This document shows, in pieces, positions 3,049-27,917 of a stretch of 64,000 bases of DNA. The notes under the pieces are model-generated. The model had not been told where the DNA came from. It saw only the letters and a list, made by a program, of their open reading frames with translations, and did not search any database. A program made the position numbers and the translations under genes. The DNA lies in the NCBI GenBank assembly GCA_012517325.1, contig JAAYVF010000039.1:1-64000 (forward strand), read 5' to 3'. Source of the DNA: Myxococcales bacterium. GTDB taxonomy: Bacteria > Lernaellota > Lernaellaia > Lernaellales > Lernaellaceae. Positions within the stretch are counted from its first letter, which is position 1, and each line of letters starts with the position of its first letter.

Positions 3049-4158
3049 ATGAGCCTTTCCCGTTATGATGTCATCGTCGTGGGCGCCGGGCCCTGCGGAT
3101 CGACTGCGGCCCAGGAAATCGCCAAGGCCGGATACAACGTGCTGTTGCTGGAACGCGATTCCTACCCCGGCGAAAACAATTCGTGCGGCGGCGGCCTGGG
3201 AAATTTCCTGCAAAAGAAATTCGACCTGCCCGACAGCCTGATCCAGAAAAAAATCCGTCGCGTCCAACTGGACCTGGGCTTCGAGAAAAAAACCTATCAG
3301 GCCGACCGGCCGGTTTACATGAGCGTCAAACGGACCGAATTCGATCGCTACCTGGCCGACCGGGCCGTGCGGGCCGGCGCCGAATTGCGCCTGCGGCAGA
3401 CGGCGATGAATTACGATCCGTTCCACAAGGTGCTGACCGTGCTCGACCGCCCGAGCGGCGTCCAGTGGCAGGCGACGGCGAACATCGTCGTCTTCGCCGA
3501 CGGCGTCCGTTCGCTGGCGTTCAGCGAATGCGGCCTCGGCGTCGACCCGAGCCGCGAGCCGATCGTCGGCCTGGCCTACGAACTGGGCTATCCCGACAAT
3601 CCGCACGACGCGTTTGAGTTTTTCTTCGACGAGCAGAAATTGCCCTACGGCTACTATTGGGTTTTCCCGACGCGCGACACGCTGAACGTGGGCGTCGGCG
3701 GCCCGGTGAAAAGCATCGGCAAACAGGCCAAGGACTTTCTGCTGAAGTTCATCGACAGCCGCGAGGATTTGCGCGGCCGGGCGGCGGTCCGCAAGACGGC
3801 CGGGATGATCCCCAGTTACGTGGCCTCGCGCCTGCACGGCGACGGCGTGCTGGTGGTCGGCGACGCCGGCGGCTTCGTCAATCCGCTCACCGGCGGCGGC
3901 ATTTTCCTCGGGATGGTCAGCTCCCAGCTCGCGGCCCGCACCGCCAACGAAGCCCTGCGCGAAGGGCGCACCGACGGCGCGTACCTCGCCCGCTATTCCT
4001 GGCGCGTCAAGTCATCGCCCTTCTACCTCGGGCTCAAGACCTTCCACGGTCTGGTGACCTACAGCCAGAATCACTTGAAACGGACCGGCAAGCCGGTGCT
4101 CGGCAAAATTTTCAAGCTCTATTCCGACATCGGCGATTTCACGCTGCGGCACCTGTAG
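3049..4158 (+). CDS. Geranylgeranyl reductase family flavoprotein
   Basis: A 369-residue FAD-dependent oxidoreductase. The N-terminal dinucleotide-binding motif is D-V-I-V-V-G-A-G-P-C-G-S (residues 7-18), followed by E-R as the ribose-binding acid. The family Cys-Gly-Gly-Gly motif (S-C-G-G-G-L-G, about 45-51) and the second FAD motif V-V-G-D-A-G-G-F-V-N-P-L-T-G-G-G (about 267-282) are both present. The family saturates the double bonds of geranylgeranyl or longer prenyl chains. GAGGAG lies 9 bases before the ATG. It is the third gene of the operon after the GT39-like and UbiA-like genes. A plausible role is saturation of the UbiA product or of the polyprenyl carrier used by the glycosyltransferase. 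Confidence 0.85.
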   Translation: MSLSRYDVIVVGAGPCGSTAAQEIAKAGYNVLLLERDSYPGENNSCGGGLGNFLQKKFDLPDSLIQKKIRRVQLDLGFEKKTYQADRPVYMSVKRTEFDRYLADRAVRAGAELRLRQTAMNYDPFHKVLTVLDRPSGVQWQATANIVVFADGVRSLAFSECGLGVDPSREPIVGLAYELGYPDNPHDAFEFFFDEQKLPYGYYWVFPTRDTLNVGVGGPVKSIGKQAKDFLLKFIDSREDLRGRAAVRKTAGMIPSYVASRLHGDGVLVVGDAGGFVNPLTGGGIFLGMVSSQLAARTANEALREGRTDGAYLARYSWRVKSSPFYLGLKTFHGLVTYSQNHLKRTGKPVLGKIFKLYSDIGDFTLRHL

Positions 4159-4173
4159 CCGCGCCGCTCGTCG

Positions 4174-5058
4174 CTACTCGCCCAACGCCGGCACGATCGT
4201 GTCGCGGGCGAATTGCGCGAAGGTCGTCGGGGTCCGCCAATCCGGCACGGTCGTCAAACCCTTCAGCAACAGGCCCGAATCGAACGCCTGCGCCAGTTCT
4301 ACGTACTGGCCGGCCACGTCGGCGCTGATTCCCAGGCCGACGAGCGCGTCCCGGACCTGGTCCGGCGAGACCTGGACGTACTCGATCGGCCGGCGGATTT
4401 CCCGGGAAATGATCGCCGCGATCTCGCCGTAACTCAAATCTTCCGGGCCGAAAAAGGTCAGCACGCGGCGACCGGACCAGCTCAGGTCGGCCAATTGCTT
4501 CGCTGCCACTTCGGCGATATCGCGCGTGGCGATCATCGGCACCCGAACCGCCGGCGAAACCGCCTGAAACAGCGCGCCCATCTGTTTCATCGTTTCGAGC
4601 GAACCGAGGATGTTCTCGTAAAACGCGGCCGGGCGCAGATGCGTGACGTTCGCGGCCACGCCGTCGAGAATTTTTTCGATATCGTGCAGGCCGTTGACCG
4701 GTCCCGCCCCGCTGCCCAGATGGGCGCCGAGGCTGGACAGGTGAACCACGTGCGCAATGCCGTTTTTCTGAATGGCTTCGGCGGCGATCCGCCCCAATTC
4801 GCGCTGATAGGCGCGGAAATCGGCCACCTCGACGTTTGGCGGCGTCAGCCAGAAAAGCGCCTTGGCACCTTGCGTGGCCTCCCGCACGAACCCAGCATCG
4901 TTCAGCGACCCCTGCTTGACCGTCGCCCCCATGACCGCAAACCGCGCCACATTTTCCGGGTGCCGAGCCAGCAGAGTCACTTTTTTACCCGCCTGCAGCA
5001 GAATTTCCGTCAACCGCGAACCGATTTTTCCGGTCGGAGTGGTGATGACGATACTCAT
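4174..5058 (-). CDS. NmrA-like atypical short-chain NAD(P)-binding protein
   Basis: 294 residues with an N-terminal Rossmann motif, T-T-P-T-G-K-I-G-S-R (GxxGxxG variant), and then V-T-L-L-A-R-H-P, whose Arg fits NADP(H) binding. Later L-S-S-L-G-A-H (about residue 100) stands where extended SDRs have their active-site Ser, and the Tyr/Lys pair is not obvious. This is typical of NmrA/HSCARG redox-sensing or isoflavone-reductase-like proteins. ATG at 5058 is chosen because GGGGGA lies 9 bases upstream; a TTG at 5082 would add eight residues. The gene converges on the GGR gene with a 15-base gap. Confidence 0.75.
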   Translation of the reverse strand: MSIVITTPTGKIGSRLTEILLQAGKKVTLLARHPENVARFAVMGATVKQGSLNDAGFVREATQGAKALFWLTPPNVEVADFRAYQRELGRIAAEAIQKNGIAHVVHLSSLGAHLGSGAGPVNGLHDIEKILDGVAANVTHLRPAAFYENILGSLETMKQMGALFQAVSPAVRVPMIATRDIAEVAAKQLADLSWSGRRVLTFFGPEDLSYGEIAAIISREIRRPIEYVQVSPDQVRDALVGLGISADVAGQYVELAQAFDSGLLLKGLTTVPDWRTPTTFAQFARDTIVPALGE

Positions 5059-5125
5059 GATGGCATCCCCCATATTTGACAACCATTCTCAACAAATGAA
5101 ATATAGGGACGAATCCTGAAAAGAC

Positions 5126-5141
5126 AATCCGGCGCCGGATT
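5126..5141. promoter_or_regulatory. Perfect 16-base palindrome between rpoH and the NmrA-like gene
   Basis: AATCCGGCGCCGGATT is fully self-complementary and lies 24 bases after the rpoH stop and about 70 bases before the NmrA-like start. On the minus strand it is followed by GTCTTTTC. It could be a weak terminator for rpoH or an operator for the reductase; the sequence does not decide. Confidence 0.4.
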
Positions 5142-5164
5142 ATTGGATTGGGTAATCTTCGATA

Positions 5165-6070
5165 CTAACGGGCGTCGTACTGCTCGGCGCTCAGGCCGCG
5201 CCGCTGGAAAAAGCCGCGCATTTTATCGAGCAGCCCCGATTCGATTTTTCGCGCCCGCTCTCGCGAGAAGCTGAATTCGTTGCCGATTTCCTGCAGCGTA
5301 AGCGGTTCGTCGGTCAATAGGCGATTGTAGAGAATGAACTTTTCCTTGTCCGAAAGGCGCGGTTCGAGGTCGGCGATGGCCTCGCGCACCATCCGGCGCT
5401 CCTGGCCGACCGCAATCGCCTCGTCCGGCTGAGATTCGTGCGCGGGGAAAAGGTCGCTGACCGTTTCCTTGCCCTTCTCGCCGACCGGCATGTCCAGCGA
5501 AACATCGTTGCTGCCCAGGCGGCCTTCCATTTCCACGACCTCACGCTCGGAAACGTGCAACGATTGACCGATCAACTGCGCCGTCGGGACGATGCCGCGC
5601 GCTTCCAGGCGGGCCTTTTCCTTCTTGAGGTTGAAGAACAGCTTGCGCTGCGCCTGGGTCGTGCCGATCTTCACCATTTTCCAGTTGTTGAGGATGTAAC
5701 GGATGATGTAGGCGCGAATCCACCACGAGGCATAGCTGGACAGCTTGACGTCTTTGTATGGATTGAACTTCGCCACGGCCTGCATCAGGCCGATGTTGCC
5801 TTCCTGAATCAGATCCATCACCTGCATGAATTGGCGGCGGTACTCGAAGGCGATCTTCACCACCAGGCGCAGGTTGCCCAGCACGAGGCGGACGCCGGCT
5901 TCCTTATTGCCGTTTTCGAACAAATCGACGGCAAAGTTGTATTCTTCTTCCGGAGTCAGTAGCGGTAGTTCCCGCAACCGCGCCAGATAGGTTTCCAGCG
6001 GACCGGTCGTGACCAGACTTTGCTGGGGCGATCGGATCAGCGCGGTTTCGGGTTGGATTTTTTTTGCCAT
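5165..6070 (-). CDS. rpoH: RNA polymerase sigma-32 factor (heat-shock sigma)
   Basis: A 301-residue sigma-70 family protein. Region 1.2 opens with P-L-E-T-Y-L-A-R-L. Region 2 contains D-L-I-Q-E-G-N-I-G-L-M-Q-A-V and S-S-Y-A-S-W-W-I-R. The RpoH box is present as Q-R-K-L-F-F-N-L (about residues 139-146) and separates RpoH from RpoD, RpoS and FliA. Region 4.2 is a helix-turn-helix (L-T-L-Q-E-I-G-N-E-F-S-F-S-R-E-R-A-R). No region 1.1 is present and the length is normal for RpoH. The gene is monocistronic with its own candidate promoter at 6203-6230 and a 5' leader of about 125 bases, long enough for thermosensor-type control, although I did not fold it. Confidence 0.9.
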   Translation of the reverse strand: MAKKIQPETALIRSPQQSLVTTGPLETYLARLRELPLLTPEEEYNFAVDLFENGNKEAGVRLVLGNLRLVVKIAFEYRRQFMQVMDLIQEGNIGLMQAVAKFNPYKDVKLSSYASWWIRAYIIRYILNNWKMVKIGTTQAQRKLFFNLKKEKARLEARGIVPTAQLIGQSLHVSEREVVEMEGRLGSNDVSLDMPVGEKGKETVSDLFPAHESQPDEAIAVGQERRMVREAIADLEPRLSDKEKFILYNRLLTDEPLTLQEIGNEFSFSRERARKIESGLLDKMRGFFQRRGLSAEQYDAR

Positions 6071-6202
6071 CTCTTGATGTCTCCGCTCGGATGTCGAACG
6101 CTTGGCGATTCATTGCCCTTTCGACACGAAAACCCTCCGTCAGGTTCGATCACTTTCAGCCACACCCGGCATTCGATGGCCGCTTGCGCTATTTACTAAG
6201 TA

Positions 6203-6230
6203 AAAATAAAGTGGTTAATTCCTTTGTCAA
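6203..6230 (-). promoter_or_regulatory. Candidate rpoH promoter
   Basis: On the minus strand TTGACA (6230-6225) is followed after 16 bases by TATTTT (6208-6203). The flanking stretch is AT-rich compared with its surroundings. Confidence 0.45.
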
Positions 6231-6373
6231 GCTCATTTCGGCCCATTTCAGCGCGCGCAAAAAAGTTTGCTGACGTTATCAAAGTTGATTTAAAATTTCC
6301 AGAGGGAAATCGAGAAAAAGTCGCCGCGTCGGCAAACGCCTTTTTCGACCACCGCTCACACAAAAAAATCGAG

Positions 6374-6414
6374 AAAAAACCGGCGCTTTCCTTTTCGGGA
6401 AAACGCCGGTTTTT
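6374..6414 (-). terminator. Rho-independent terminator after the PHP-lipoprotein operon
   Basis: AAAAACCGGCG and CGCCGGTTTTT form an 11-base stem around a loop of about 18 bases. The terminal U-tract is in the minus direction, and the A-rich left side could also serve the plus strand. It lies 15 bases past the stop at 6429. Confidence 0.75.
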
Positions 6415-6428
6415 ACCTTCAACAACTG

Positions 6429-6962
6429 TTACCGGCCGGTCGGTTTTTCCGGTGGCCGGCCGACGAAAATCTCCTGATCCGCCGGCGCATCGACGCCGAC
6501 CCCGAAACGGAAGTTTACCTCGCCGCGCAAGGGGACTTCCTCGATTTTCGCCGGCAATCGCACCTCGCCCTGGGGCCGCATGGTCAGCAGGTACTCCGGC
6601 GCATTCCACAGGTTCATGTCCACCAGCGAAAGGTGGTGCAAACCGTGCTTCAAGGCCAACGGCGCCTCGAAAACATAGGACCGCCTTTCGTCCTCGGCCT
6701 TGGCGCTTTTCACGACCCAGGCAAGGTTTTGGTTGTCCACGGTCAATTGAACCAGGGCGATGATCCGGCTTGCTTGCAGTCGTGGATCGGCGCCGTTCGG
6801 CGCGATGCCGTCGTCGAACAGTTCGAGGGTCACCTTGGCCGGCGCCAGCGTGTACACGGCGTGAAAGTGCGAATGCCGCCCCAGCTTGTGGGCCGAAGTC
6901 GGCGTCGCGGCCACCACCAGCAGCAGCGCGATCAGCCAAAGGGACTGCCGGCGCACGGTCAT
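6429..6962 (-). CDS. Exported protein of unknown function with His-rich N-terminus
   Basis: 177 residues. M-T-V-R-R-Q-S plus a hydrophobic run and T-S-A-H make a Sec signal peptide ending near residue 24. The mature protein starts with a His cluster (H-K-L-G-R-H-S-H-F-H) that would suit metal binding, and the remainder looks beta-rich. The start overlaps the stop of the PHP-domain lipoprotein (ATGA at 6962-6959), so the two are translationally coupled. It may be a periplasmic partner or metal-delivery factor for that metallohydrolase, but this is inference. The family was not recognised. Confidence 0.65.
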   Translation of the reverse strand: MTVRRQSLWLIALLLVVAATPTSAHKLGRHSHFHAVYTLAPAKVTLELFDDGIAPNGADPRLQASRIIALVQLTVDNQNLAWVVKSAKAEDERRSYVFEAPLALKHGLHHLSLVDMNLWNAPEYLLTMRPQGEVRLPAKIEEVPLRGEVNFRFGVGVDAPADQEIFVGRPPEKPTGR

Positions 6963-9715
6963 TCCTCGACCGGCAGACCCGGAGCGTCGAACGCGTGATT
7001 GCAATTCGCATCGACCCAGATCGGGTTGGTGATCGCGAAAACCCGCTCGCGATTGACCGGATGAGTCGTCGCCGACGTATGCCCGGCTTCCACCACGAAA
7101 TAGGCGTCGCCGTCCAGCGGAAGAACCACGGTATCGTCGAACCGCACCACCTCGGTGGTATCGGGGATCACGATCTCCGTGGCCAATTCGCCGTGGTTCG
7201 TGTAGACGCGCAGGTAATTGACGTCCATCCAACTCGGCGCCTGGACGCGAATCAGCAGGCTGATTTCGGTGTCGGTCGCGCAATCGACGAACCCGCCGAT
7301 CGTCTGATCGGCGATGCCGAAATTGATGAACGGGCCGTTGCTGACCTCGCTCCGGTGCGCCAGGACCGAATCGACCATGTCTTGAACCGTGGCGTCGGCG
7401 GGGTTGTCGGTGGGCATCGCGTACACGTTGCGGGCGTTGCCCAGTTCGGAAGACGGCGTATGCGAATCGCTGTTGCCGGTCATCGTGTATGTATAGCCCT
7501 GATCCAGCAGGCTGTACCAGTCGATCAGCGTTCCTTTGTCGTCGTTGCCCGAGTTGAAGACCTCGATGGCGTCGAAATTATCACCCCAGCGATCGGGATC
7601 GACCGACCCGATGCCCACCGCCGGATCGTATTTCACATAATTGAACCAGCCGGAGCTGTCGCGCGGGTGATTGATCTGCACGATTTGCGCCCCGAAATCG
7701 TTGCGCGCGATTTCCCACATATCCGGGAATTCGTATTTCTCCTGCGCCACGCCGTCCGCGTCGTAATGAACGAACGGCACGCCGTAATAGTCGGGCCGGT
7801 CCGCCCGCTTGGTCAGCGGCCAGGTGTTGAAGTGGCCCCAAACCGGGCTGATTTCCGCGCCGATCACCGGATGGATGAACGCTTCAGCGCCCTCAGCCAC
7901 GACGTAGGGCAGGTAATCGGACATCGTGTCGTGATCGGTGAAGACCGGCATTTCCAGGCCGGCCGCGGCCATTTCACGGACGCGCGATTCGGCCAGAGCC
8001 TGCGAATCCACCGAGAACTGGGTATGGACGTGGAAATCGCCGGTCAGGTAGCCGGTCGTGTCGACCGAACGCACCAGCACGTCGTCGAATTCCGCGTTGT
8101 CGCCGGCGACGATCGTCACGTTCTGCACGGCGATTTCGTATTCGTAACCGCGCGAGGCGGTGATCGTGTAATCGCCCGGCGCGACGCGCTCGATGCCCGT
8201 GCCGGTCACGCTCCAGACGCGATGCACGACGTTGTCGGTCGGCGCCGCGTCGAATCCCGCCTGCAGCGACAGCTTGCACGGCACGGCCGCGCCGTCGCCG
8301 TCGATCACGAGGTAATCGAGAAAGCCCGGAACCGTCGCCGGAACATCGATCGCTGTTTTATCGCCGGCGGTCACCGTCACCGCGACCGGCGTGCCGGCGA
8401 CCCGACCGGGACCTTCGGTCCAGAGTTGATAATCCCCGGGCTCGACCTCGATCGAAAACGCGCCTGATTCATCCGGCCAGGCTACGCCGACGTAGTTTTC
8501 TCCTTCGGGGCGGTCGTCGGTGATCAGCACTTCGAGTTGGGTGAAGTCGTCGCCGCTGTCCAGCACCACCGTGCCGTCGATCGTGCCTACGGCCTTGTTG
8601 CCGTCGAATTGATTCAAAGTCGCGTTGAACATTGTCGTGTCGCCGTTGCCGACGATCAGCAGCCGCTCCTGGGCGCCCTGGCCGAGCGGCTCGAGCGGAA
8701 TCATGCCGGTGATCAGCGGCACGATGTCGCCGTCGACGTAAGGCGCCCAGAATTTTTCCTCGGGGCTGGTGGTGGCCAGGGCATAGGAAACCGGTTGCCA
8801 GCGGGTGTTCGTGCCGCCGACCCACCGCAGGTTGGCGAGCAGGTCGAAATCGCCCATATCGTAACCGGCGCGCGGCGAAAACGGCCGCGTCTCGTCGCCC
8901 CAAAAGACGAAATCGGCCAGCAGCACGTTGCGCGCGGCATTGGTCGTGTCCTTCAAGATCGTATTGATGTGCAGGTAGTTGGTGTCGGGATCCAGCGTGT
9001 ACTCGACGGTTTCCTCCAACCCGTAATCCCAGGTTTTGACGAGGTGGTCCACGATGCTCACGCCGCCGTCCTTGCCCGTCACGCGAATCTTCGCCGAGCC
9101 CTCATTGCCCGCCGCGACGATCCGAAAATCCTTCGCGTAGAAGGCGCGCGCCAGGCCGATCATCTGATCCAGCGCCCACAAGCCGTCCATGCCGTCCTCG
9201 CCTTGCGGCCGCGCCAGATCGGCGTCGATGACGTTGCCCGCGTAACCCATCCAGCCGACGCCCGCATGCTCCGGCGAGCGGATGATGAATTCGACTTCCG
9301 AGTTATAAATCTTCAGATCGCCGATTTCACCGCGAGCCCGCGGGCCGCCGATCAGTTCGTCTTCGCTGGTGATGATCCCTGCGCGGACCTCGCCGGGGCC
9401 GAGCGTATCCGACAGATTGGCCCAAACGTAAGGCGAGCTGTCGTCGTCGTTATCATCGTCGTTATCGTTGTCGTCGTCGTTATCATCATTGTCGTCATCG
9501 TCATCGTCGTCGCCGCTGTCGTCGTTGTCGTCATTGTCATCGTCGTCGTCATCGTCAACGGCATCATCATCGGCGGGCGTCGTATCGTCGTCCGACCGGT
9601 CGTCATCATCGTCATCGCCGGTCGAACAACCGACGAGGAACAACGAGGTCAGCAACAGGAAAAGGATTGTCAATGACAATCCGGATCGCGCGGTCGCCAC
9701 GAGGAAGCGTTTCAT
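6959..9715 (-). CDS. Asp/Asn-linker lipoprotein with C-terminal PHP (CehA/McbA-type) metallohydrolase domain
   Basis: 918 residues. The signal peptide ends in a lipobox, S-L-F-L-V-G-C (Cys30). An Asp/Asn-rich linker of about 60 residues follows, then beta-rich domains. The PHP hydrolase has its four metal motifs: G-D-F-H-V-H-T-Q-F-S (about residue 560), V-F-T-D-H-D-T-M, I-N-H-P-R-D and G-N-S-D-S-H-T. PHP domains are di- or trinuclear metal phosphoesterases; CehA-type members are exported. The C-terminal region contains a small beta-domain. The start at 9715 has AAAGGAGTG at good spacing; an in-frame start at 9733 is less likely. The downstream His-rich exported protein overlaps its stop. The substrate is unknown; a phosphodiester or ester outside the cytoplasm is the natural guess. 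Confidence 0.8.
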   Translation of the reverse strand: MKRFLVATARSGLSLTILFLLLTSLFLVGCSTGDDDDDDRSDDDTTPADDDAVDDDDDDDNDDNDDSGDDDDDDDNDDNDDDNDNDDDNDDDSSPYVWANLSDTLGPGEVRAGIITSEDELIGGPRARGEIGDLKIYNSEVEFIIRSPEHAGVGWMGYAGNVIDADLARPQGEDGMDGLWALDQMIGLARAFYAKDFRIVAAGNEGSAKIRVTGKDGGVSIVDHLVKTWDYGLEETVEYTLDPDTNYLHINTILKDTTNAARNVLLADFVFWGDETRPFSPRAGYDMGDFDLLANLRWVGGTNTRWQPVSYALATTSPEEKFWAPYVDGDIVPLITGMIPLEPLGQGAQERLLIVGNGDTTMFNATLNQFDGNKAVGTIDGTVVLDSGDDFTQLEVLITDDRPEGENYVGVAWPDESGAFSIEVEPGDYQLWTEGPGRVAGTPVAVTVTAGDKTAIDVPATVPGFLDYLVIDGDGAAVPCKLSLQAGFDAAPTDNVVHRVWSVTGTGIERVAPGDYTITASRGYEYEIAVQNVTIVAGDNAEFDDVLVRSVDTTGYLTGDFHVHTQFSVDSQALAESRVREMAAAGLEMPVFTDHDTMSDYLPYVVAEGAEAFIHPVIGAEISPVWGHFNTWPLTKRADRPDYYGVPFVHYDADGVAQEKYEFPDMWEIARNDFGAQIVQINHPRDSSGWFNYVKYDPAVGIGSVDPDRWGDNFDAIEVFNSGNDDKGTLIDWYSLLDQGYTYTMTGNSDSHTPSSELGNARNVYAMPTDNPADATVQDMVDSVLAHRSEVSNGPFINFGIADQTIGGFVDCATDTEISLLIRVQAPSWMDVNYLRVYTNHGELATEIVIPDTTEVVRFDDTVVLPLDGDAYFVVEAGHTSATTHPVNRERVFAITNPIWVDANCNHAFDAPGLPVEE
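9437..9619 (-). repeat. Asp/Asn-rich linker coding repeat (PHP lipoprotein)
   Basis: Runs of GAC/GAT and AAC/AAT codons in mixed order encode D4-8, N, DD, N, DD blocks directly after the lipobox. Synonymous codons are shuffled, so it is not a simple DNA microsatellite. Confidence 0.85.
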
Positions 9716-10195: not shown

Positions 10196-12223
10196 CTAAT
10201 CCTCTACTTCGTTGGTGTACTTCAAAATCGCGCCATGAATGCCGACAGCAAAAGCATTTCCGGTGAGGGTTCCCCCGACGGCTTGCAACCACCGCTCGGG
10301 AGCGTTGGTCTCGGAAACCTTCCAGGAGGTTCCATCGAAATGCAGAATCGCGCCATCGGAAACGACGAAAACATCCGAGGCCGAGCTGCCCCAAACACTG
10401 GTTTTCGCTGCGGCAGGCAAACCGGTCACTTCCGACCAGGCCGATCCGTCAAAATGAAGAAGAAGGTCGTAAGGAAGGGAACTGGTTGACCCGCCCGCCG
10501 CGTAGATATCGGTCGGCGACGATCCCCAAACCGACAGCAAGGCATGATCCGTGCCGCTCGCCATCGCCGCCCAATCCGCGCCATCGTAATGCAGAATGAC
10601 TCCACCCTCGCCCACGGCGTACACGTCGGTGGAAGAAGATCCCCAAACGCTCAGCAGGTAAAGCTCGGGATGGCGCAACATCTCCTTCCAGTCCACACCG
10701 TCATAGTGCAAAATAACATGAGTGCCGACCGCAAAAATATCGGAAGAAGACGTTCCCCAGAGGGCCTGCAATGACAACTCCGGGCTGCTGGCCATGGTCG
10801 ACCAGGTGTTGCCGTCGTAATGGAGAATCTCACTGCCGTTTGCGGTCGCTAAGGCATAGACATCGGAAGGCGACGTGCCCCAGATACTCAAAACCCAACC
10901 ATCCGGCCGCTGAACGACCGACCAATGGGTACCGTCGAAATGCAGGATCACTCCGCCGGACTCTTCGATGAAATACATTCCCCCACCGACATACACATCG
11001 TCCGCCGAACTACCCCAGACCGCCTTGAGGTCGGTTATCGTCAGACTCTTGGAAATTTCTTCGACCGTCGATCCGTCGTAATGCAGGATCCGGTTTGGAC
11101 GCACCATATCCGCGCAATCGCTACCGACCGCATAGACATCCGTCGGCGAGGACCCGCCGACTCCATTCAACCCGCCGTATTGTTGATCGGTCAATTCCGT
11201 CCAAGCGGGATTGTCGTAACGATAAAACAGGGAGTAGCAGGAGCCCCAGCCCATCGGCGACCCCAGGCACTCCATGCCGACGGCGAAGACCGCCTGGCCG
11301 GAGATATCTTTGATGTCTTCAATCGAGCCAAGGTATGAATCTGGCCACGACCATTCACCGTTCGTGTAATCGACAATCCCCCCACTTAAAGAATAATAAG
11401 GACCTTCATTGAATCCGACCAAAATGTTATCGGCTGCAGTTCCCTCGATGGTATGGAAGGAGGCCCAGGTGTTCTCCGAATTATGATACATCAGCGACCA
11501 AGTGAAACCGTCGAAGCGCAGCACGTCCGACCTGCCCACGGCATAAACCTCGGTCGGTGAATTGCCCCAGACATCCATGAGAAAGTGAATCCCGGCCACC
11601 CCCGGAATAATCGCCCAGGTCAAACCGTCGAAATGCAGAATCACATCTTCGTAATTCGTCAGGTCATACCCGACGACCCAGACATCCGCGGAGGAAAAAC
11701 CATGAACGTCATTTAGCTGATAGCGTTCTTCGGCCACCACCGGCGCCCACTCGACGCCGTCGTAATGCACGACGGTCGTGCCGCCGACAGCGTAGATATC
11801 GGAAGAGGATAAACCCCAGACCGCGGTGAGTGGTTCGGTCGTATTACTGGCCAGCGCGGAAAAAATCACCCCATCGAAATGCAGAATGACGCCGCGGTCG
11901 CCGACGAAATACATATCCTCGGACGAAGTACCCCAAACTCCGGCCAACCAGCCGCCGACCGGCCAGGGATTTTGCCAACACCATCCTTCGGAATTGCAGA
12001 CTGAATAATCGGCGAAATCATCGTTGTCGTCATTGTCGTCGTCATCATCGTCGTCGTCGGTATCATTGTTGTCGTTGTTGTCGTCATCATCATCTTGAGC
12101 CTGCCCCGAATCGGATTCGGAGTCGTCGTCGCCGCCCTGCTCGTCACCCGAACACGCAACGATAATCAAAACCCATAGCGCCAGCGTTGCCGCAAAGCCG
12201 ACGAACGAAAACCTGATCTGCAT
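10196..12223 (-). CDS. Asp/Asn-linker lipoprotein with 14 WGSSxxDVYAVG repeats (double propeller-like)
   Basis: 675 residues. The signal peptide ends in a lipobox, L-I-I-V-A-C, followed by an Asp/Asn-rich linker. The rest is 14 consecutive repeats of about 40-50 residues, each built on S-V-W-G-S-S-x-x-D-V-Y-A-V-G, then I-L-H-Y-D-G and a Trp. Repeats of this size usually form one beta-propeller blade each, so 14 suggests two seven-bladed propellers. ATG at 12223 has GGGGAA six bases upstream; an alternative ATG lies at 12235. The neighbour at 12257 is a paralogue with the same architecture and repeat number. Predicted surface-exposed; ligand unknown. Confidence 0.75.
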   Translation of the reverse strand: MQIRFSFVGFAATLALWVLIIVACSGDEQGGDDDSESDSGQAQDDDDDNNDNNDTDDDDDDDDNDDNDDFADYSVCNSEGWCWQNPWPVGGWLAGVWGTSSEDMYFVGDRGVILHFDGVIFSALASNTTEPLTAVWGLSSSDIYAVGGTTVVHYDGVEWAPVVAEERYQLNDVHGFSSADVWVVGYDLTNYEDVILHFDGLTWAIIPGVAGIHFLMDVWGNSPTEVYAVGRSDVLRFDGFTWSLMYHNSENTWASFHTIEGTAADNILVGFNEGPYYSLSGGIVDYTNGEWSWPDSYLGSIEDIKDISGQAVFAVGMECLGSPMGWGSCYSLFYRYDNPAWTELTDQQYGGLNGVGGSSPTDVYAVGSDCADMVRPNRILHYDGSTVEEISKSLTITDLKAVWGSSADDVYVGGGMYFIEESGGVILHFDGTHWSVVQRPDGWVLSIWGTSPSDVYALATANGSEILHYDGNTWSTMASSPELSLQALWGTSSSDIFAVGTHVILHYDGVDWKEMLRHPELYLLSVWGSSSTDVYAVGEGGVILHYDGADWAAMASGTDHALLSVWGSSPTDIYAAGGSTSSLPYDLLLHFDGSAWSEVTGLPAAAKTSVWGSSASDVFVVSDGAILHFDGTSWKVSETNAPERWLQAVGGTLTGNAFAVGIHGAILKYTNEVED
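12014..12140 (-). repeat. Asp/Asn-rich linker coding repeat (first 14-repeat lipoprotein)
   Basis: About 40 codons of mixed GAC/GAT and AAC/AAT follow the lipobox. A Gln/Ser-containing break lies on the N-terminal side. Confidence 0.8.
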
Positions 12224-12256
12224 TAAATTCCCCATTTAGCATCAATGACCGCCTTT

Positions 12257-14302
12257 TCAAAAAGACTTATGCAAGATGGCTCCATAAAGGCCGGCGACAA
12301 AAACATCATTGGTCGGCGTTCCGCTGACCCAACTCAACATGTTATCCGAAGCGCCCGTCTCGATCAGAGTCCAGGAATTGCCGTCAAAGTGCACTAACTC
12401 GTGATCGACGACAACGTATACATCCGTCGACGATCGTCCCCAGATGCTGGTAATCGTTCCATCCACCGGCAAGAACACCAGCGACCAGGAATTGCCGTCA
12501 TAATGGCGCAAATCGCCGCCGCCCGCATAGATGTCGTCCGCCGCTGAACCCCAAACAGCATAGAAGGATTCCTCGGTCCCGCTATCCATCGCCGTGCATT
12601 GCACGCCGTCATAATGGTAGATCGAGCCGAAATATCCGATCGCGTACAAATCGGACCCGGATGTTCCCCAAATGCCGCTCAACCCTTCAGGCGATGGGCA
12701 AGCCAGCGTCGTCCAAACCGATCCGTTGTAACGATAAATCGCTTCTTCGTTGCCAATGAGATAAACCTCATCGGAGGACAGCCCCCAAATATATTTGGGT
12801 TCAGGCGGGATCTCGTTGGCCATGGACGTCCAGGAAACGCCGTCATAGTGAAAGATGACATCTTCATAAGGATAAAATCCATTATGGCCGATCGCAAAAA
12901 CATCCGTGGGCGAAGATCCCCAGACGCTTGTCATAAAGTAGTCCGATTCGAGCTGTACCGACCAGATCGAGCCGTCATAATGGAGAATTTCCCCATACTG
13001 GCTCTGCGGGTCTAAAAACATCGAAGAGGTTCCGGTGACCGCGAACGCATCGGTACTGGAAGCCGCCCAAATACCTCTGATGGGAATCGGAGCGATATTC
13101 CTCGAAAATCGGGACCACTCCTCCCCGTCGTAGCGCAAGATCGTATGGGTGGTTTGTTCGGCATCGCGTGAGCCGATGGCGTAAACATTCTGTTCCGAGG
13201 TTCCCCAGATGGCGGTCAGGCCAGCCGACTCGAAGGGGGTTCTTGTCAACCAGGTCGAACCGTCATAGTGAAGAATGATCCCCCAACATTCGGCGCCGTC
13301 ATGATGAAGCCGTGGGTAACAGGCGTATCCCGCCGCCCAGATGTTAGTCGCGGAGGAACCCCAGATGTCTAAAAGAATACCCGACGCGGTGTAGGTTTGG
13401 GACCAGGCCGATCCGTCGTATTGTTGAATAAAACCACTGGGAGCCCATCCATAACCGCCGCCGCCCACGCTAAAGACCTCCGTGGACGAATCGCCCCAAA
13501 TGCCGGAAAAGAAAGCAATCATCGGTTCCGGCGCGTCCATGTCTGTCCAGGCCGTTCCGTCGTAATGCAGGATTTTCCACCCACCCGTAGCAAAAACATC
13601 GCTCGATGAAGTGCCCCAGACATCACTCAATGTAAGTCCGCTTGTTTCGGCGGATTCGACCAACCAGGAATCGCCGTTATAGTGAAGAATGGCGTCGACC
13701 GAATTTACCTCATCAACGCCTACCACGAAAACCTGGCCGTCGGGTGATCCCCAAATACCTCCCCAAGTGTATTGGTCGTTATTCAAAATGATCGACCAGG
13801 CATCGCCGTCGTAATGCAGGAGGACCGAACCGCCGGTCGCGTAAATGTCACTGGATGAGAAGCCCCAGACATTGCTCAGCGATACGGTCGTGCCGCTGTC
13901 CATCCTGGTGAAAACAGATCCGTCATAATGGAGGATGAGGCCCGCTTCCCCGACAAAAAAGAGGTCAGTCTCTGAAGAGCCCCAAACACCGCCCAACCAG
14001 TTGCCGACCGGCCAGGGATTTTCCCAACACCAACCGTCGGCATTGCAAACGTACTCCAAATCCAGATCGTCGTTATCGTCATTGTCGTCATTATCGTCGT
14101 TGTCGTCATCATCGTCGTCATCATCATCGTTGGTATCATTGTCGTCATTGTCGTCATTGTCGTTGTTATCATCGTCGGCGGAAGAGTGATCGTCGCCATC
14201 ATTCGTTTGGTTGGTCGAGCAAGCTCCGACGATAAGCATTGCGAGGAAAAAGAAGAGAATAATCCTGAAGTGGTTCGTAACCAAACGTGTCGACCTTTTC
14301 AT
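12257..14302 (-). CDS. Asp/Asn-linker lipoprotein, paralogue with 14 WGSSxxDVYAxG repeats
   Basis: 681 residues. It has a signal peptide with lipobox (L-I-V-G-A-C), an Asp/Asn linker, then a W-C-W-E-N-P-W-P-V-G-N-W-L stretch almost identical to the one in the neighbouring lipoprotein. 14 repeats with V-W-G-S-S...D-V-F-A-x-G...I-L-H-Y-D-G-x-x-W follow. The start at 14302 is chosen because M-K-R-S-T-R begins a normal signal peptide; longer frames reach 14380 but lack a signal. The pair lies in tandem on one strand with a 33-base gap, so it arose by duplication. Repeat sequences have diverged while number and order are kept. Confidence 0.75.
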   Translation of the reverse strand: MKRSTRLVTNHFRIILFFFLAMLIVGACSTNQTNDGDDHSSADDDNNDNDDNDDNDTNDDDDDDDDDNDDNDDNDDNDDLDLEYVCNADGWCWENPWPVGNWLGGVWGSSETDLFFVGEAGLILHYDGSVFTRMDSGTTVSLSNVWGFSSSDIYATGGSVLLHYDGDAWSIILNNDQYTWGGIWGSPDGQVFVVGVDEVNSVDAILHYNGDSWLVESAETSGLTLSDVWGTSSSDVFATGGWKILHYDGTAWTDMDAPEPMIAFFSGIWGDSSTEVFSVGGGGYGWAPSGFIQQYDGSAWSQTYTASGILLDIWGSSATNIWAAGYACYPRLHHDGAECWGIILHYDGSTWLTRTPFESAGLTAIWGTSEQNVYAIGSRDAEQTTHTILRYDGEEWSRFSRNIAPIPIRGIWAASSTDAFAVTGTSSMFLDPQSQYGEILHYDGSIWSVQLESDYFMTSVWGSSPTDVFAIGHNGFYPYEDVIFHYDGVSWTSMANEIPPEPKYIWGLSSDEVYLIGNEEAIYRYNGSVWTTLACPSPEGLSGIWGTSGSDLYAIGYFGSIYHYDGVQCTAMDSGTEESFYAVWGSAADDIYAGGGDLRHYDGNSWSLVFLPVDGTITSIWGRSSTDVYVVVDHELVHFDGNSWTLIETGASDNMLSWVSGTPTNDVFVAGLYGAILHKSF
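14055..14200 (-). repeat. Asp/Asn-rich linker coding repeat (second 14-repeat lipoprotein)
   Basis: About 48 codons of D and N in D-D-N units follow the lipobox, with mixed synonymous codons. Confidence 0.8.
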
Positions 14303-15752: not shown

Positions 15753-15863
15753 GAAAAAACGGAGCGGCCGGTTTTACGATAAGTCAATTTTTAGAAATCT
15801 ATTCACCATTTGGCGATAATGGGCGGCAGTCGGCTTAACGGAGGACTTACTGGGAGGCTCGGT

Positions 15864-16355
15864 ATGAGAAAAATATTGCTTCTGCTTCTGGCTCTTTCCG
15901 CGGCGATGGTCTTCGCCTGGGCTTGCAACAACGGCGACGACGATGACAACGACGACAACGACACATCGATTGACGACGACAACGACACCGCGGTCGACGA
16001 CGATGATGACGATGACGACAACGATGACAACGACGACAACGACGACGACAACGATGACAACGATGACAATGACACTACACCCACGCCACCGGAGTATCCG
16101 AACAACCACGATGTCACCTGGAACTGCTACACCTGCCATGCCTCCGTTTTCATGGGCGTGACCACCAAGGAACCGCACAACCACGCGTATACCGCCCCTG
16201 GCCAGTGCGTCGGCTGCCACCAGGAAGGCGACTTCACCAATCCACCGTACGAGGGCGGCCATAACTGGAATCAGAATTGCCTGCTTTGCCATGCCGGCAA
16301 GCATGGAAAAACCTGGCAGAGCAAAAACGAATGCCTGGTTTGCCACGGCGAATAG
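15864..16355 (+). CDS. Asp/Asn-linker lipoprotein with four CxxCH haem motifs
   Basis: 163 residues. A signal peptide ends at A-W-A-C (Cys21), an Asp/Asn-rich linker of about 50 residues follows, and then a compact domain contains C-Y-T-C-H, C-V-G-C-H, C-L-L-C-H and C-L-V-C-H, plus extra His for axial ligands. This fits a small tetrahaem c-type cytochrome held on a flexible acidic tether at the membrane surface. GGAGG lies before ATG 15864; a longer frame from 15810 lacks a signal peptide at its start. A terminator follows. The electron partner is unknown; no oxidoreductase is adjacent. Confidence 0.8.
   Translation: MRKILLLLLALSAAMVFAWACNNGDDDDNDDNDTSIDDDNDTAVDDDDDDDDNDDNDDNDDDNDDNDDNDTTPTPPEYPNNHDVTWNCYTCHASVFMGVTTKEPHNHAYTAPGQCVGCHQEGDFTNPPYEGGHNWNQNCLLCHAGKHGKTWQSKNECLVCHGE
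15934..16078 (+). repeat. Asp/Asn-rich linker coding repeat (tetrahaem lipoprotein)
   Basis: About 48 codons, nearly all Asp or Asn with a few Thr, lie between the lipobox and the first haem motif. Confidence 0.85.
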
Positions 16356-21916: not shown

Positions 21917-22041
21917 GCGGCGGGCGATCGGCGCCGGGCTTTCCGGCGTTGCATATTGCCTTTACAAAGTAATTTCGCTACAAAAGGAATAAATGGGATG
22001 GATATCCATATCCGATTAACCGAACAATCAAGGAGGACAAG

Positions 22042-24303
<2,262 letters not shown>

Positions 24304-25319: not shown

Positions 25320-27917
25320 ATGAGGATTAGCTCCTATTGGCTTTTCCTTTTCTCTCTACTGGTCTTCGTTCCCGGCATTTCTTCCTGCGACAGCACCCAA
25401 AATGACGACGACTCCGCCGGTGATGATGACACCACACCGGGACAATATCCGAATGACGACGACGATGGCCCCGACGACGACAGCGCCGGAGACGACGACG
25501 ATAACGATGATGACGATAACGACAATGACGACAACGATGACAACGACGACAACGATGATTCCGCCGCATGGACCTGCACGACGGTTTACGAAACGCTTTA
25601 CCTGGCTTGCGGCCGCGTCGTCTACAACGGCGAAGCGACCGTTCCGCTCGAAACGGCCGTCGCCGCTTGCGAATCCGGTCTCGAAGGTTTGGGTCTCGAT
25701 GGCGCGACGGCCGGTTGCATTATGAACAACGCACCCGATTGCGAAAACATCACCAACTGTCTCTACGGTTCCACGGTCGATGACGACATGGACGAGGCTC
25801 CGTTATCCATCGAAAAAGTCGAGGGTGGTCCGCCGGGCCGAACCGGCGCGGCGATCGTGCTCGACGATGCGGACGCCCCGATTATCGCCGCCGTCAGCGG
25901 TCGCGATTTCAATTTGTATCAATCCGGCGCCGCGACCTGGACCAGCTCGCGTCTCGCGCCGCTGGTCGATTACCCGGCCCTGGCCCGCGGTCCGGACGGG
26001 CGGTTGCACGCGCTGTTCGTCGATCTGCCCGCACGGCGGATCGTCCACGGCGTTCAAACCCTCGCCGGTTGGGAATTTGATATCGTTGACGATCAACCGT
26101 TGCTGGATTACGCGTTTTGCCGCCTGACGATCGACAATGACGGTTTTGTGCATGCCGTGTTCTTCGCCACCGATCCCGAATACGACGCTTACAGCACTTT
26201 TTATGCGACCAACCGAAGCGGCTCCTGGGTGACCGATGAAATCGGCGGTGGGCTCTATTCCTTCACCTACCTGGCGCCGCGGCTGGCGGTGGACGACGAG
26301 GGCAAGGCGTACATCGTTTTCGCGCAATTGGGATCGGCGCCGATGTATACCAACTACTACAATATGCTTTACCTGATAACGAACCGTTCCGGCGAATGGG
26401 ATTTTGAGTATATCGCGGTGGGTCCCTGCTACCAAGGCACCCATTATTCTTACGATACCGCCTTTTCCTCCGGACCGATCGCGATCCGGCCGAACGGCGA
26501 TCTGGTTGTTTTAACCTCCTATTCCTATACCACTATGCAGGATGGCTACGTCACCACGGACATCGATCAAGTGCGCCTTTACACGCGCGATGCCGGCACC
26601 GGCGAATGGTCCTTCGAAGGCCTGCTGGGAACGTCCGCCATCACCCTCGACCGTGCCATACAACTGGATTCGGCCGGCGAACCACGGCTTCTTTTCTCCG
26701 ACCGGGACAACGCCACGTATTACGGGTTCCTGACGGAAGACCGTTGGGAATTTGAAACCCTTCCCGGCGATCCGTGTGATCAACTCGATCTGGCGCTGAC
26801 CGGCGCCGACGAACCGCGAGTCGCTTGCTACCGCGAAGCGGACACCACCCTTCATTACTTGACGACGACGACGAAGGGCTGGGCCGACGAAGCGATCGAT
26901 TCGCAACCCTTCATCCCCTATTCCAGTGACTTTTACGCTACCGCCGCCGATTGGTCGGCGAGCAACGGCGGCGCCGTGGCCTACTGGCATGATGCCGACA
27001 ATATCCAGACGTACGTGGCCGAGAATTCAGCCGGCGCCTGGCAGGCGAGCGCCGTGCCGAATGCCGGCAATACCAAGGGCCAACCGGCGCTGGCCTACGA
27101 CAGCGCGGGCGGTTTGCACCTCGCCTACCTGGAAACAGACGAACTCAGCGTCACCCGGCTCGTCTATGCCGTGCCCGTCGGCGACCAGTGGCAATTCACG
27201 GTCGTGGCGGCGGAAAACGTCGACCGTTACAACCAGCCCACGCTGGCCCTCGACGGCGCCGACCAACCGCATTTGATTTATATTGACCCGGACGATCATT
27301 TGCGCCATGCCTGGCGCGGCGGAGATGATTGGGACGATCGGCGCATCATCTGGACGACGGAAAACGCCGGCGATCCCGCCTTGACGGCCGCCCCGGATGG
27401 ATTGTTGCATCTTTGCTATACTGATCAAACTGCCGTCTATTACGCGACGAACGAGACCGCCTGGTTACAAGCCGAAACGGCATCGGATCCGAACGCGGGC
27501 TCAAGCAGCACCTGTTCTATCGCCGTCAGCGAGGAGGGAATCGTCTATATCGCATATCTGGATTACGGCGAAGGCGACGTACGGCTGGCCGCCCGCTATC
27601 AAGGTGTTTGGAACCACACCCGGATCGCATCCTACACCGGCTCGAATTATTTCAATTATTCCTTCATTGCCGCAGCCGGTAATGGGCGGCTTCATCTTTC
27701 CTACCTGGATCGGATGAACGGCGGCGACTACAACTACCTTTACGTCCTGATCCATTACACCAACGCGGACGGTGCCTGGCGCGAATCGATCATCGACTAC
27801 CCGACCAATTTCAATTTCCTGAATCGTTCACCGGTCATGACCATGGATGAAACCGGCCGGCCGCACTGGTTCTATCAAGGCTACGGCGCCGTCTGGCATG
27901 CCACATTTGATGAATGA
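25320..27917 (+). CDS. Asp/Asn-linker lipoprotein with beta-propeller-like repeats
   Basis: 865 residues. The signal peptide ends P-G-I-S-S-C (Cys23) and, unlike its relatives here, has Asp at position +2, the inner-membrane retention signal in E. coli. After an Asp/Asn linker and a short Cys-containing helical region (C-T-T-V-Y-E...C-E-N-I-T-N-C), about a dozen beta repeats follow. These have a G-x-x-H-A/L-x-F/Y-x-D pattern (R-L-H-A-L-F-V-D, F-V-H-A-V-F-F, L-H-L-A-Y-L-E, L-H-L-C-Y-T-D, L-H-L-S-Y-L-D), suggesting a beta-propeller. No catalytic residues are recognised. GGGAG lies before the ATG. Confidence 0.7.
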   Translation: MRISSYWLFLFSLLVFVPGISSCDSTQNDDDSAGDDDTTPGQYPNDDDDGPDDDSAGDDDDNDDDDNDNDDNDDNDDNDDSAAWTCTTVYETLYLACGRVVYNGEATVPLETAVAACESGLEGLGLDGATAGCIMNNAPDCENITNCLYGSTVDDDMDEAPLSIEKVEGGPPGRTGAAIVLDDADAPIIAAVSGRDFNLYQSGAATWTSSRLAPLVDYPALARGPDGRLHALFVDLPARRIVHGVQTLAGWEFDIVDDQPLLDYAFCRLTIDNDGFVHAVFFATDPEYDAYSTFYATNRSGSWVTDEIGGGLYSFTYLAPRLAVDDEGKAYIVFAQLGSAPMYTNYYNMLYLITNRSGEWDFEYIAVGPCYQGTHYSYDTAFSSGPIAIRPNGDLVVLTSYSYTTMQDGYVTTDIDQVRLYTRDAGTGEWSFEGLLGTSAITLDRAIQLDSAGEPRLLFSDRDNATYYGFLTEDRWEFETLPGDPCDQLDLALTGADEPRVACYREADTTLHYLTTTTKGWADEAIDSQPFIPYSSDFYATAADWSASNGGAVAYWHDADNIQTYVAENSAGAWQASAVPNAGNTKGQPALAYDSAGGLHLAYLETDELSVTRLVYAVPVGDQWQFTVVAAENVDRYNQPTLALDGADQPHLIYIDPDDHLRHAWRGGDDWDDRRIIWTTENAGDPALTAAPDGLLHLCYTDQTAVYYATNETAWLQAETASDPNAGSSSTCSIAVSEEGIVYIAYLDYGEGDVRLAARYQGVWNHTRIASYTGSNYFNYSFIAAAGNGRLHLSYLDRMNGGDYNYLYVLIHYTNADGAWRESIIDYPTNFNFLNRSPVMTMDETGRPHWFYQGYGAVWHATFDE
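25401..25562 (+). repeat. Asp/Asn-rich linker coding repeat (propeller-like lipoprotein)
   Basis: About 50 codons; the early part also carries T-T-P-G-Q-Y-P, the late part is pure D-D-N units. Confidence 0.8.

Follow-up and report, generated by a model that had tools for sequence, protein, structure and literature searches.

GH74 xyloglucanases are built from two tandem seven-bladed beta-propellers of the Asp-box type, and periplasmic propellers are known from two-component sensors of the BT4663/BT4673 type. Fourteen four-stranded blades in a 7+7 arrangement are also found in the tandem WD40 proteins AIP1 (1nr0), Utp21 and WRAP (2YMU); the available parts of the respective sources describe an N-terminal strand d that closes blade 14 (PMC3897721) and, for 2YMU, 14 blades in two rings of seven (PMC6805158). 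Ycf48 is a seven-bladed lipoprotein that aids the assembly of photosystem II, according to the accessible part of PMC8038367. Here we compare with these systems two neighbouring genes, designated P1 and P2, at positions 10196-14302 of a window of 64,000 nucleotides (the whole stretch of DNA that was analysed; contig JAAYVF010000039.1 of the GenBank assembly GCA_012517325.1, Myxococcales bacterium, GTDB lineage Lernaellota). Their products are probably secreted lipoproteins with an acidic linker, a double seven-bladed propeller and a cap that would form part of blade 14, and their likeliest use would be as binding heads. The fold and the topology are of known kinds; new are an unnamed family of Ycf48-related double propellers in the phylum FEN-1099 and in Myxococcota, its cap, and a copy number that changes mostly in steps of seven. 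The names Candidatus Lernaellota and Podoxiota have also been proposed for FEN-1099 (PMC13248872, available in part).

The repeat unit of about 40 residues reads VWGSSxxDVYAVG...GxILHYDGxxW and ranges from 37 to 52 residues in the two proteins, except for a final unit that is shortened to 25-29. Manual segmentation and a hidden Markov model (HMM) of the unit agree on 14 units in each, later profiles also gave 14 and 14, and in both proteins 13 whole units are followed by a last one ending after its third strand. The AlphaFold2 model of P2, which reaches from the cap to the end of the protein and was built on a 25-row alignment of capped 14-unit proteins, is all beta with a mean predicted local distance difference test score (pLDDT) of 88.9 and a predicted template modelling score (pTM) of 0.86. 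For this model Foldseek ranks multi-propeller proteins highest among PDB entries (axonemal doublet proteins, AIP1, GH74 and sensor propellers), and AIP1 1nr0, GH74 xyloglucanases and WD40 double propellers are among the top matches with E about 1e-14 to 1e-15. In VIA-align comparisons the single seven-bladed propellers 7bie, 7big and 2z2o, which have no N-terminal closing strand, fall within model residues 15-320 (Z about 30, root-mean-square deviation [rmsd] 2.1-2.4). The WD40 chains (G-beta, RACK1 and PkwA 5yzv), which do have such a strand, align 263-271 residues spread over about 7 to 599, and a span of 7 to 599 with about 269 residues can only be explained by the cap together with residues past 320; for 2ymu, 537 residues align between 8 and 599. 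The alignment ranges of the two propeller types therefore place units 1-7 in ring 1 and units 8-14 in ring 2. The model thus supports P2 as two tandem seven-bladed beta-propellers with four-stranded blades in closed rings of seven, and P1 appears to share this fold by homology. The preliminary description of the locus, which had counted 14 units in both proteins in spite of their strong divergence and proposed that fourteen blades make two seven-bladed propellers, is thereby borne out; the prediction returned no other fold.

Ahead of unit 1 both proteins carry a Trp-rich segment that is identical at 19 of 25 positions (CNADGWCWENPWPVGNWLGGVWGSS versus CNSEGWCWQNPWPVGGWLAGVWGTS) and contains the cap. 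Unit 14 is devoid of strand d, and the cap aligns by range with the closing strands of WD40 propellers, a pairing that is read from ranges only; this missing strand of blade 14 is most likely provided by the cap, whose own strand spans model residues 10-14, and the NPLPQGN part of the cap would then form the 14D-1A connection between the rings. The near-identity already reported for the Trp-rich segment stands, yet the segment is probably a conserved closing strand plus loop and not just a conserved flank. Among relatives that were not chosen by the cap, it is present in 20 of 23 clean 14-unit proteins versus 1 of 37 clean 7-unit proteins, and this near restriction suggests that the cap is a closing strand specific to double propellers. 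In fen_1099, a metagenome-assembled genome (MAG) that we take to belong to the phylum FEN-1099, most of the 7-unit proteins open with a plain strand d, e.g. WSAMxSGT, in its place. That G-W-C-W-N-P-P-G is strictly invariant in the cap partly reflects the search itself, which collected relatives by that pattern; positions outside the pattern, a less biased gauge, show Cys at -4 (49 of 61 rows), Leu at 7 (37), Gln at 9 (41) and Leu at 13 (47), and relatives found by homology have looser caps such as WCWNSPLPQGN.

The copy number was surveyed in relatives from four sources, namely the window, the FEN-1099 class with its neighbours, the cap set and set B. A search of the genomes of 84,980 species with the cap pattern retrieved 68 stretches, mostly from Myxococcota MAGs and including some chance matches in unrelated frames; set B stems from a homology search in seven genomes chosen for holding capped proteins, whose 80 rows yielded 60 regions (some spanning several rows), with seven rows already in set A and six left out. 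Not counted were open reading frames (ORFs) cut by the end of a contig or locus, duplicates of one protein across loci, ORFs that had less than three units or lacked a unit match at E 1e-8 (L122 with two units, Ycf48-type proteins), and a further 31 complete ORFs on account of odd spacings, unknown residues, more than one cluster or a long tail. Nine of the latter (L069, L087, L092, L097, L102, L119, L120, L124 and L128) fit the 14-unit profile without a large insertion or deletion, and L108, L218 and L205 fit no multiple of seven as counted. The remaining 93 complete, cleanly tiled ORFs have 6 (3 ORFs), 7 (39), 9 (1), 11 (1), 13 (2), 14 (44), 16 (1) or 21 units (2), hence 7, 14 or 21 in 85 of 93; multiples of seven are strongly preferred, but not absolute. 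A binomial value for these counts takes no account of shared descent and is disregarded here. The 11-unit case is a frameshifted gene with a further closing unit downstream, and exceptions such as L095 (9 units) and L127 (13) may be collapsed assemblies. Most complete capped proteins align to the full-length 14-unit profile without any insertion or deletion of length at least 15, strongly worn members included; L125 and L126 are about seven units longer than the profile. Proteins that are only 20-43% identical to P2 keep 14 units, and it is this constancy in diverged relatives that exceeds what chance or simple inheritance can provide. Three 7-unit proteins of fen_1099 (L062, L063 and L065) are natural circular permutants that start at strand b, end with strand a and still have seven blades, in keeping with a closed ring. 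The number of units thus does not vary widely among relatives, and the census upholds the idea that a constant number reflects a fixed fold and not a drifting array; the equal counts of P1 and P2, from which this idea had been drawn, prove little, because both go back to one 14-unit parent.

Two observations on individual loci may be added. The two 21-unit ORFs of L126 (1153-4431, minus strand, and 4078-6864, plus strand) lie head to head with overlapping open frames. The capped protein of L210 (1515-4130, minus strand) is off the rule of seven with 16 very similar Cys-bearing units, apparently the result of a recent amplification.

P1 and P2 share 41% identity across the matched stretch. In a tree of 27 rows they group as sisters (support 100/98) nested among FEN-1099 proteins, on end branches that measure 0.9 and 1.0 changes per site. 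Because of the sister position and the long branches, the pair is best read as the product of an ancient tandem duplication, within the host lineage, of a gene that already had 14 units, a number inherited by both copies. When each P1 unit is paired with its most similar P2 unit, the unit numbers agree in just 4 of 14 cases; unit similarity alone thus does not recover unit order, which the full-length alignment carries. A 7+7 echo in the sequence (unit i resembling unit i+7) was considered and dropped: within proteins, offset 7 shows a small rise (0.045 ± 0.030), but offset 6 is nearly the same (0.037 ± 0.025), hence there was no clear signal. Further tandem propeller gene pairs, each of two adjoining 7-unit ORFs, are present in L202 and L049.

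The sequence relationships point to Ycf48. Family profile A1 matches Ycf48 (5ojp) among the PDB sequences with E 3e-15 over profile positions 198-474; this match of 277 positions, about one propeller, documents homology across a whole propeller. The relation is visible only once an alignment profile is used: the repeats of P1 and P2 are named by no Pfam or NCBIfam family, which returned just weak matches to acidic or unrelated models, neither protein matches PF14870 in Pfam at E 1, and a PDB search with the single sequence of P1 found the acidic stretch only. A distant relative, L124, scores 19.8 for PF14870 at a cut-off of 27. P1 and P2 resemble Ycf48/PF14870 as lipoproteins and in the blade pattern G-x-G-x-I-L with an Asp-Gly turn before Trp, but they are double, capped and have HYDGxxW where Ycf48 has the Asp box; to our knowledge, they have no link to a photosystem. 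The cap also heads plain Ycf48-type units with DGGxTW boxes in proteins of Pelomonas, Roseateles and Paucibacter (L072, L099, L100 and L135), and units of the Roseateles type, after removal of the cap, align with the P1/P2 family by profile with a probability of 97.7. The tandem WD40 proteins have the 7+7 layout that is predicted for P1 and P2, but the latter bear the marks of secreted lipoproteins, and their putative closing strand is a distinct, conserved Cys/Trp cap; a WD40 signature is found neither in Pfam or NCBIfam, nor among the PDB sequences with P1 alone or profile A1. The BT4663/BT4673-type sensors give a weak profile match (3v9f, E 1.2e-5) and Foldseek matches (4a2m, 3ott), but P1 and P2 have no kinase or regulator part and, as judged by eye, no membrane helix past the signal peptide. 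No capped proteins were detected in viral_contigs, and a limited literature search on the cap and repeat motifs and on propellers with Myxococcota lipoproteins found nothing on the family.

In the proposed architecture each unit would form one four-stranded blade (a, VWGSS; b, DVYAVG; c, ILHYDG; d, W-S-x-M), and the cap would supply strand d of blade 14, thus stapling the chain start into the chain end. The NPxPxG loop would link the two propellers, and the whole would have the topology of tandem WD40 proteins (AIP1, Utp21, 2YMU) made from Ycf48-type blades, kept off its lipid anchor by the acidic Asp/Asn linker. The likeliest use would be a binding head with length-fixed turns on one face and variable b-c loops on the opposite one. 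Unit count, predicted fold, Ycf48 relation, multiples of seven and constant versus variable loops were computed; the closure of propeller 2 by the cap, the surface position and the binding role we infer. Among 1298 units the a-b and c-d turns are nearly constant in length, and insertions occur almost only at model positions 15-16 (b-c); the b-c loops of a propeller all lie on one face. Bacterial immunoglobulin (Ig) domains precede the cap in two of nine relatives scanned, at the place taken by the acidic linker in P1 and P2. The matches are numerous, with 38 stretches in genome G063 and 34 in G002, a genome of the same family as the window genome (G000, 5.2 Mb), some of them from one ORF. Variable b-c loops, Ig domains and many copies together suggest a binding head that is anchored by lipid and has one variable face.

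Several observations weigh against this interpretation. The alignment behind the P2 model took in 14-unit proteins only, the cap itself has a pLDDT of 76-77, and its partner strand rests on alignment ranges. Some 14-unit proteins (L050 and L193) are without a cap, and eight of the 93 census counts are not multiples of seven (three with 6, two with 13 and one each with 9, 11 and 16). Three complete capped betaproteobacterial proteins (L072, L099 and L135) have, by eye, 15 Asp-box units, again no multiple of seven, though a 7+8 arrangement might be considered. The model of the 21-unit protein L125 has single-propeller matches at residues 288-560 and 561-819, i.e. units 8-14 and 15-21, but with a pTM of 0.49 and a pLDDT under 50 for the cap and much of unit 7 it provides a weak case for three propellers.

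Among the alternatives, the main rival is a periplasmic assembly factor for a membrane complex that acts like Ycf48 and not as a surface binding head. It draws on the fact that Ycf48, the closest solved relative by sequence, is a seven-bladed lipoprotein with such a function (PMC8038367, accessible part), but we regard it as unlikely, since the many matches per genome and the stalk-like N-terminal Ig domains agree better with display than with a single assembly step. An enzyme resembling GH74 xyloglucanases, with a catalytic cleft between the rings, is improbable: the double-propeller fold of GH74 is among the best matches of the P2 model (E about 5e-15), but Pfam, NCBIfam and the profile search of PDB sequences revealed no sequence link to GH74. 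Moreover, the fully conserved columns of the 25-row alignment are nine cap positions plus a single blade Trp and a single Gly, and no conserved catalytic acids or acidic pair stand out in the units by eye. We give very little credence to a drifting tandem array whose 14 units are common to P1 and P2 merely through gene duplication; the sister relationship of the two proteins and copy number shifts in relatives with very similar units (L210 with 16, L127 with 13) would agree with it, but 14 is held at low identity, the census peaks at 7 and 14, and a unit-against-unit comparison detected no recent homogenisation inside P1 or P2. A single ring closed by all 14 blades, or else an open superhelix, compatible with 14 units that run on without visible break and with one closing strand for the whole array, is hardly conceivable given that single propellers superpose both on P2 residues 15-320 (rmsd about 2.3) and on the cap plus C-terminal half (rmsd about 2.5), that 7-unit and 21-unit relatives occur, and that natural propellers span four to twelve blades in the part of PMC6805158 available.

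The coordinates of the binding-head candidates and their segments are compiled in Table 1.

Table 1. Segments of the gene pair P1/P2 in window coordinates.
Feature	Position	Strand	Basis
P1 lipoprotein, 679 amino acids, 14 propeller units, second gene of pair	10196..12235	-	ORF and unit counts
P1 signal peptide and lipobox IVAC (Cys28)	12152..12235	-	translation read; lipobox pattern
P1 Asp/Asn-rich linker	11999..12151	-	translation read
P1 cap CNSEGWCWQNPWPVGGWL, putative closing strand and loop	11945..11998	-	role from structure alignment of P2 model
P1 units 1-7, predicted propeller 1	11027..11944	-	unit limits; fold by homology with P2 model
P1 units 8-14, predicted propeller 2	10199..11026	-	unit limits; fold by homology with P2 model
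P2 lipoprotein, 681 amino acids from ATG at 14302, 14 propeller units, first gene of pair	12257..14302	-	
P2 signal peptide and lipobox VGAC	14219..14302	-	translation read
P2 Asp/Asn-rich linker	14048..14218	-	translation read
P2 cap CNADGWCWENPWPVGNWL; DSSP strand at model residues 10-14	13994..14047	-	alignment and model
P2 units 1-7, predicted propeller 1, model residues about 15-320	13079..13993	-	P2 model, structure alignment
P2 units 8-14, predicted propeller 2, model residues about 321-600	12260..13078	-	P2 model, structure alignment

Both genes lie on the minus strand with P2 first and a spacing of 21 bases; the automatic ORF call of P2 begins 26 codons upstream of the ATG, at a TTG. 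The order of segments is the same in both, namely signal peptide with lipobox, acidic linker, Cys/Trp-rich cap and 14 units, and a signal peptide, a lipobox and a Cys at +1 were recognised by eye in each protein, in line with the lipobox pattern [LVI][ASTVI][GAS]C given in the accessible part of PMC8038367. Of the 93 matches that P2 has within its genome, about 80 are confined to the Asp/Asn-rich stretch behind the lipobox, and within the window the linker matches sites at 9452-9670, 15855-16112, 22024-22311 and 25329-25556. As far as these matches tell, the acidic linker is a genome-wide feature of lipoproteins in the host lineage. One of them, a short lipoprotein at 15810-16355 on the plus strand, combines the same linker with several CxxC/CxxCH motifs (by eye) and is probably a small multihaem cytochrome.

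The analysis assigns a fold, a grammar of domains and a motif that can serve as marker to a family that Pfam and NCBIfam leave unnamed in P1 and P2. Its reach is indicated by the 68 stretches with the cap pattern in GTDB species, some of which are no members, and by as many as 38 matches in a single genome. Diverged members at 7, 14 and 21 units, some of the 7-blade ones circular permutants, constitute a natural data set on the gain and loss of blades, and members with very similar units (16, 13) look as if caught in transit. It is a tentative and rather doubtful extension that these proteins belong to a large unnamed family of surface receptors made of Ycf48-type blades in FEN-1099 and Myxococcota, in which copy number would change mainly by whole rings (7, 14, 21), the conserved Cys/Trp cap would staple the first and last ring, and the many paralogues, with loops that vary on one face, may offer a diversified repertoire for recognition.

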